From Candidatus Brockarchaeota archaeon (GTDB lineage Archaea > Thermoproteota > EX4484-205 > JAAOZP01): a stretch of 48,214 nucleotides of DNA. The stretch spans positions 1 through 48,214 of the forward strand of contig JAFNIT010000008.1 in NCBI GenBank assembly GCA_017601345.1, written 5' to 3'. Both the position numbers and the translations under genes were made by a program. Numbering within the stretch: the first letter of the stretch is position 1; each line of letters opens with the position of its first letter. This document shows positions 45,902 through 47,083 of this stretch, piece after piece. Below the pieces are notes generated by a model. It made no database searches, was not told the origin of the DNA, and was given only the letters and a program-made list of their open reading frames with translations.

Positions 45902-47083
45902 ATGGGGTCTGAACAGTCGATTCCTATTTCAAAATATATCGTGAAGCTGGAGTTTACGGTCGAGGGGGTTGTGGAAAGGATCTTCGTATAATGAAGATTC
46001 CCACAGAAACACGATGTAATAGGAGCAATATTTGGACAGACCGAAGGTCTGTTCGGAGATGCCCTCGACCTTAAGAAGCTCCAGAAAAGCGGTAAGCTTG
46101 GTAGAATAGACGTAGATATTCGAGTAGAGGATAAAAAGACAGTTGGAACAGTAATTATTCCAAACAATCTGGATCAGCCTACGGCTGCGCTTTTAGCAGC
46201 CACGCTGGAGAGCATAGAAAGAGTTGGGCCTTATGATGCTAAGTTTAAACTGTTAGGGCTTGAGGATGCGAGGGAGGAGAAGAGGAAGAAAGTTATGGAG
46301 AGAGCTAAGGACATAATGCAAAAATGGTCTGCTTCGCAAAGGAGCGAAGTAATTCAAATGCTGAGCCAAGTCAGCGAGGCCAGTGAGGTAGGGAGGATAG
46401 TAAGCCTAGCGCCGGGCGTAGATGGTGGACCCGAGGCGGAGTCGAGCGACGCATTATTCGTCGTAGAAGGAAGGGCTGACTTAGCTGTTCTTCTAAGAGC
46501 AGGGATTAAAAACATTGTTGCAACCAACGGAGTGAATATTCCACAATACGTTATAAATCTGACTCATAAGAAAAAGGAAGTAACTGTTCTCGCTGATGGA
46601 GATAGAGTTGGAGACATGATTGTGAAAGAGCTTTTGAGAAGAGGGGCGAAGATCGATTACGTTTGCAAGGCACCGCAGGGGATGGAAGTAGAGGAAATGA
46701 AACCCATTGAAATACTGGATTTAATCAGTAAGAGGATGGATTTGAAAACCTACTTAGCCACTCATGCAGCAGTGAAACAAGTTATTCCAGAGAACCTTCT
46801 AAATAAGGCTGGTGAGCTTAAGGAAAAGATTAGAGAAACCTTCATGGCAGTTCTTTTAGATTCCGAAGGAGAGGTCATTGAAGAAGTCCCCGTAAGCCAG
46901 CTTTTTCAACGTCTCAATGAGCTCGATAGTGTCGCGGGAATAGTCTTCGACGGCATAGTTACGCAGAGGCTGTTAGAACTCGCATTCATGAAAGACGTTA
47001 AGCTAATAGTCGGTGAGAGAATAGGCTCTCTAGAGAAAATGCCCAGGGACATTGTTGTTAAAACTCTTGACGAGCTGAAATAG
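45902..47083 (+). CDS. dnaG: archaeal DnaG (toprim) interrupted by a 30-nt BHB intron (45977..46006)
   Basis: Exon 1 MGSEQSIPISKYIVKLEFTVEGVVE; exon 2 [38 protein letters not shown]...; toprim FVVEGRADLAVLLRAGIKNIVATNG, ADGDRVGD. Confidence 0.9.
45977..46006 (+). other. predicted archaeal pre-mRNA BHB intron in dnaG
   Basis: GTT-GTGG-AA^A-GGATCTTC(gtataat)GAAGATTC-CCAC-AG^A-AAC; contains in-frame TAA TGA. Confidence 0.88.

Follow-up and report, generated by a model that had tools for sequence, protein, structure and literature searches.

Introduction

A bulge-helix-bulge (BHB) intron in the cbf5 pre-mRNA of Crenarchaeota was reportedly described by Watanabe in 2002, and for two decades cbf5 has been essentially the sole archaeal coding gene known to carry such an intron. 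Splicing of the cbf5 message has been demonstrated experimentally in Sulfolobales and Desulfurococcales (PMC2738675), and according to a 2020 study (PMC7714728) no coding BHB intron other than that of cbf5 had been reported, in line with its description as the classic spliced archaeal mRNA in an earlier note on the DNA analysed here. In the present analysis a short insert within dnaG, seen in a Candidatus Brockarchaeota genome and in the related genomes of its class, a class of Thermoproteota-like archaea, was compared with these systems, and the probability that it is a real, class-conserved BHB intron in a protein-coding pre-mRNA is put at about 95%.

Among described systems the closest is the cbf5 intron of Crenarchaeota (Yokobori 2009, PMC2738675), which is likewise short, lies in coding sequence and is cut after nucleotide 2 of 3-nt bulges, as is predicted for dnaG. 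The two also share a central helix that includes exonic sequence, lineage-wide conservation and a variable interior, but differ in host gene and site, and the window's class has both, the cbf5 intron being 13 nt and the dnaG intron 18-32 nt in length. With archaeal pre-tRNA BHB introns the dnaG intron has in common the motif and the expected enzyme, EndA, whereas its host is an mRNA, and what its removal would restore is a reading frame, not an anticodon stem. The BHB of HVO_1309 in Haloferax (PMC7714728) is also an mRNA substrate of EndA, as is predicted for dnaG, but it is located in the 5' UTR and not inside the coding sequence. The IRE1-type splicing of HAC1 and XBP1 offers a further parallel, being non-spliceosomal mRNA splicing by an endonuclease and a tRNA-type ligase with a resulting change of frame (each of these predicted for dnaG); in contrast to dnaG, it uses another nuclease and hairpin-loop sites without a BHB, and is both regulated and eukaryotic. 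A BHB intron in an mRNA is therefore already known as a kind, and what is new, as far as checked, is dnaG as the host gene, the class-wide fixation and a second, independent gain. Literature searches, whose coverage mostly excluded subscription papers, found no report of a dnaG intron.

The dnaG locus and its predicted splicing

Archaeal DnaG takes its name from the bacterial primase. It is an RNA-binding subunit of the exosome, and residues K6 and Y7 of the N-terminal domain (NTD) of Sulfolobus DnaG are needed for RNA binding (PMC4227792). In the window, meaning the whole stretch of 48,214 nt that was analysed, from a draft genome of 36 contigs and 77% completeness, the dnaG locus spans positions 45902-47083 on the plus strand, with its stop codon ending at 47083. 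Exon 1 (45902-45976, +) comprises 25 codons, MGSEQSIPISKYIVKLEFTVEGVVE, delimited by translation and by homology to intact outgroup dnaG, and encodes a K-Y pair matching K6/Y7 of the Sulfolobus protein. An insert of 30 nt (45977-46006, +) follows between codons 25 and 26; it contains the in-frame stops TAA TGA, its sequence and coordinates were given correctly in the earlier note, and the identical junction occurs in nine other genomes. Exon 2 (46007-47083, +) encodes 358 aa plus a stop, covering the rest of the NTD, the Toprim domain (Pfam matches) and the C-terminal domain, and scores 357.7 bits against NCBIfam NF003108 'DNA primase DnaG' (cut-off 300).

The insert and its borders fold into a BHB in which a 3-bp outer helix pairs GTT (45968-45970, +) with AAC (46008-46010, +), and a 4-bp central helix pairs GTGG in exon 1 (45971-45974, +) with CCAC on the intron side (46001-46004, +). 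The 5' bulge is AAA (45975-45977, +), with a predicted cut at AA^A, the 3' bulge is AGA (46005-46007, +), with a predicted cut at AG^A, and the intron hairpin (45978-46000, +) has 10 contiguous bp, two of them G-U pairs, closed by the loop ATA. All of these elements come from the fold, together with pair counts for the outer and central helices, codon usage for the 5' arm of the central helix and compensatory changes for the hairpin. The helices and bulges are those that had been proposed from the window alone, and the BHB is also the unconstrained minimum-energy fold of the insert plus flanks (-20.1 kcal/mol). Taking out the insert by a cut behind the second nucleotide of either bulge rebuilds the conserved DnaG frame exactly.

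In the proposed mechanism, the pre-mRNA would fold such that the GTGG of exon 1 and the CCAC at the 3' end of the intron pair, so that a 3-nt bulge lies over each exon-intron border. EndA, the tRNA splicing endonuclease, would then cleave both bulges behind their second nucleotide, and the exons would be joined, GTTGTGGAA to AAACACGATG, by RtcB or a ligase of equivalent function, closing the 30-nt gap. Use of the spliced message would yield a single DnaG of 383 aa with an intact N-terminal RNA-binding domain; since the K-Y pair is encoded in exon 1, neither an unspliced product nor one made from an internal start would have a working RNA-binding domain.

Candidates for both enzymes are encoded in the class. 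EndA (PF01974) matches were found in all 12 class genomes, and 11 of these have at least two, which fits a heteromeric enzyme; RtcB (PF01139) was found in 9 of the 12. The window itself contains the gene for the RtcB RNA ligase, the probable exon-joining enzyme, at 18885-20333 on the minus strand (PF01139, 577.5 bits over 18888-20189, -). In some members of the genus RtcB carries an intein (NF038162), as in L150 (G015:C9), G039 and G006, which is not present in the window.

Conservation and covariation across the class

The class sample consisted of 12 genomes from one order and three families, with dnaG detected in 10 and no dnaG match in G063 and G070 (both incomplete). All ten genes are interrupted at one codon boundary, which reads E|K except in G084, where it is E|R. 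The insert is 30 nt long in the window's genome, 29 nt in G031, 32 nt in five genomes of the genus, 18 nt in G047, 19 nt in G023 and 23 nt in G084, a member of another family; the dnaG region of G047 is identical, where compared, to that of the GenBank MAG 'Thaumarchaeota archaeon isolate SJ3.Bin70' (L002). In the members translated, the inserts of 29, 32, 19 and 23 nt shift the frame of the unspliced message and lead to an early stop, and because the insert lengths cover both of the other frame classes, no single translational frame can serve. In each of the ten class members with dnaG, removal of the intron rebuilds the conserved frame exactly, so the restoration claimed for the 30-nt insert holds in the window and well beyond it. 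The reading of the insert as a BHB pre-mRNA intron, first put forward in the earlier note, is now strongly supported by comparative genomics.

While the interior and length of the intron vary freely across the class, the structure at its borders does not. The GTGG exon bases preceding the 5' bulge pair with intron bases CCAC or CCGC preceding the 3' bulge in 10/10 class members, and all 12 dnaG introns, i.e. the ten of the class and two from genus g54 described below, have a 3-nt bulge on either strand, one over each border, with a 4-bp central helix between them. Across nine distinct sequences, 96% of cells were paired, compared with 34-61% when the partner was slid, and two-sided compensatory change was seen at five pairs, compared with 1.7 in shuffles, none of the 500 reaching as high a value; these compensatory changes fall in the hairpin. 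Per genome, 0.1-1.5% of shuffled inserts yielded a BHB at the junction defined by homology (eight sequences, not all independent), the figure for dinucleotide shuffling of the window's insert being 0.7%. The exon sequence is constrained too: the Val codon within the central helix is GTG in all ten intron carriers but in only 4 of 26 non-carriers. G047, G023 and G039 have a weak or imperfect outer helix, as would be usual among relaxed BHB motifs that a heteromeric EndA cuts.

Distribution outside the class and a second dnaG intron

An alignment of dnaG from relatives, proposed earlier as a check, bears out the intron: the insert is present in 10/10 class members, where it covaries as a BHB, and absent from the roughly 20 dnaG loci that were read directly in outgroups within the phylum. 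In the class of G255, the N-terminal 100 aa were matched in 207 of 229 genomes and were intact and near-full-length among the matches listed, the weakest genomes having E-values of about 1e-30. A phylum-wide search with the N-terminal region gave E-values overlapping those of carriers in very diverged families (f7, f13, f15 and others), where it is so insensitive that further introns may have been missed. Apparent stops inside outgroup dnaG in G111, G175, G181 and G198 proved to lie upstream of the gene or beyond its end and not in the N-terminal part, and an apparent interruption in G066 was a contig edge.

In the class of G085, dnaG is intact in 42 of 44 genomes and split in two, G085 and G193, which belong to g54 (L142 and L143), an unrelated genus of the phylum. 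The insert in these two is distinct, being located 11 codons downstream, in ...ALFGQ|TEG..., and having a length of 26 nt in G085 and 19 nt in G193. It forms a BHB with the central helix CGGU/GCCG and bulges CAA and AAA, the length of the hairpin differing between the two species. Judged by sequence, this is a second, independent BHB intron of dnaG; the first intron was found only in the window's class, with the unrelated one in genus g54.

A second host gene, with one intron fixed in a whole class and another gained independently elsewhere, would make the splicing of mRNAs by the tRNA machinery an evolutionary option of wider reach among Archaea. The known hosts, Cbf5 and DnaG, both have roles in RNA metabolism, and with two independent gains in dnaG it becomes possible to ask if these introns are under selection or neutral. 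In these genomes DnaG is likely to be truncated by automatic gene calling.

Probably obligatory splicing, possible regulation and alternative explanations

Splicing looks obligatory rather than optional, given that the unspliced message would be useless in all class members. A doubtful though conceivable extension is that dnaG is a recurrent intron target in which splicing couples the level of an exosome subunit to EndA/RtcB capacity; if true, selection for control of an RNA-processing factor through splicing would lie behind the two independent gains, whose sites are 11 codons from each other and close to where the RNA-binding domain begins, and cbf5 would be a further case. It is also quite unlikely that splicing of this BHB intron serves as a regulatory switch for the level of DnaG. 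The unspliced message gives a truncated product only (in the members translated), and DnaG is an RNA-metabolism protein (PMC4227792) whose gene gained a BHB intron twice independently, both of which would suit a switch, but no stop or length design is conserved, the interior and length drift freely, no conserved additional element was noticed in the class introns and constitutive splicing suffices. The on/off switch of the earlier note, drawn from the multiple-of-3 length and tandem stops of the window's insert, does not carry over to the class, in which the length is divisible by 3 in only two of ten members (30 and 18 nt).

The conservation of exon 1 bears on a different possibility, a very improbable one, in which the insert disables the 5' part of the gene and translation from an internal start covers exon 2 only, with an N-truncated DnaG as the product. 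The frame of exon 2 is long and open, and in G023 TTG/GTG codons occur in this frame ahead of the junction; yet every class member carrying dnaG keeps exon 1 conserved in its own reading frame (KYxI...EGVVE), and this exon holds the K-Y pair for RNA binding (PMC4227792). Further, the first ATG/GTG/TTG of exon 2 in the window is codon 97, a start at which would cost conserved NTD, and an internal start would leave the BHB and its covariation unexplained.

Translational bypassing, i.e. hopping of the ribosome over the insert with no RNA splicing, is known from phage T4 gene 60 and requires matched take-off and landing codons. The window's insert does present a short hairpin with a stop after the take-off codon, but the codons are unmatched, take-off being at GAA/GAG and the resume site preceded by CAG, CAT, CAA or CTG, and what is conserved is not a take-off hairpin but a BHB at the junction, with exon sequence on one side only, which leaves bypassing barely credible. 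An assembly or sequencing artefact, or a pseudogene, is just as hard to believe, for although the genome is a draft, ten species genomes, among them the separately named GenBank MAG L002, have differing inserts with compensatory changes at one and the same codon, and exon 2 is intact. Read-through of the insert is impossible with frameshifting lengths, group I and group II introns have hundreds of nt with a catalytic core compared with 18-32 nt here, and an intein requires an open in-frame Hint domain, whereas the insert has stops or a frameshift and at most 10 codons.

The cbf5 intron and a survey for further introns

As an internal positive control for the BHB intron in dnaG, the class carries the classical cbf5 intron after GTL, at the site GTL|DP shared with Sulfolobales-like genomes; the window's genome has it as a mini-intron of 13 nt, TG^AAGAAATGGGGAG^A. 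A cbf5 intron at GTL|DP was also observed in several lineages beyond Desulfurococcales and Sulfolobales (G305, G043, G040, G255, G085 and G193; L048-L060, L155-L161), a range in these genomes that is wider than the one given in PMC2738675.

To survey for further mRNA introns, 755 ORFs from stretches of the outgroup genome G043 were compared with 734 kb of the window's genome. Among the 217 that matched at >70 bits, dnaG was the sole gene with a believable internal interruption, the other apparent interruptions being antisense frames or stops outside the gene. No further interrupted gene was found in this survey of 217 genes, which had no positive control besides dnaG, cbf5 being probably absent from the reference sample. 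That only dnaG is interrupted among 217 homologous genes suggests that such introns are rare.

Two tRNA genes on the minus strand of the window have unusual features. A tRNA-Val(GAC) of 96 nt at 1545-1640 has an odd extra stretch of approximately 25 nt in the variable region, possibly a non-canonical BHB intron. At 12582-12672, ARAGORN predicted a tRNA-Ser(ACT) without introns and a tRNA-Phe with a 19-nt intron if introns were allowed.
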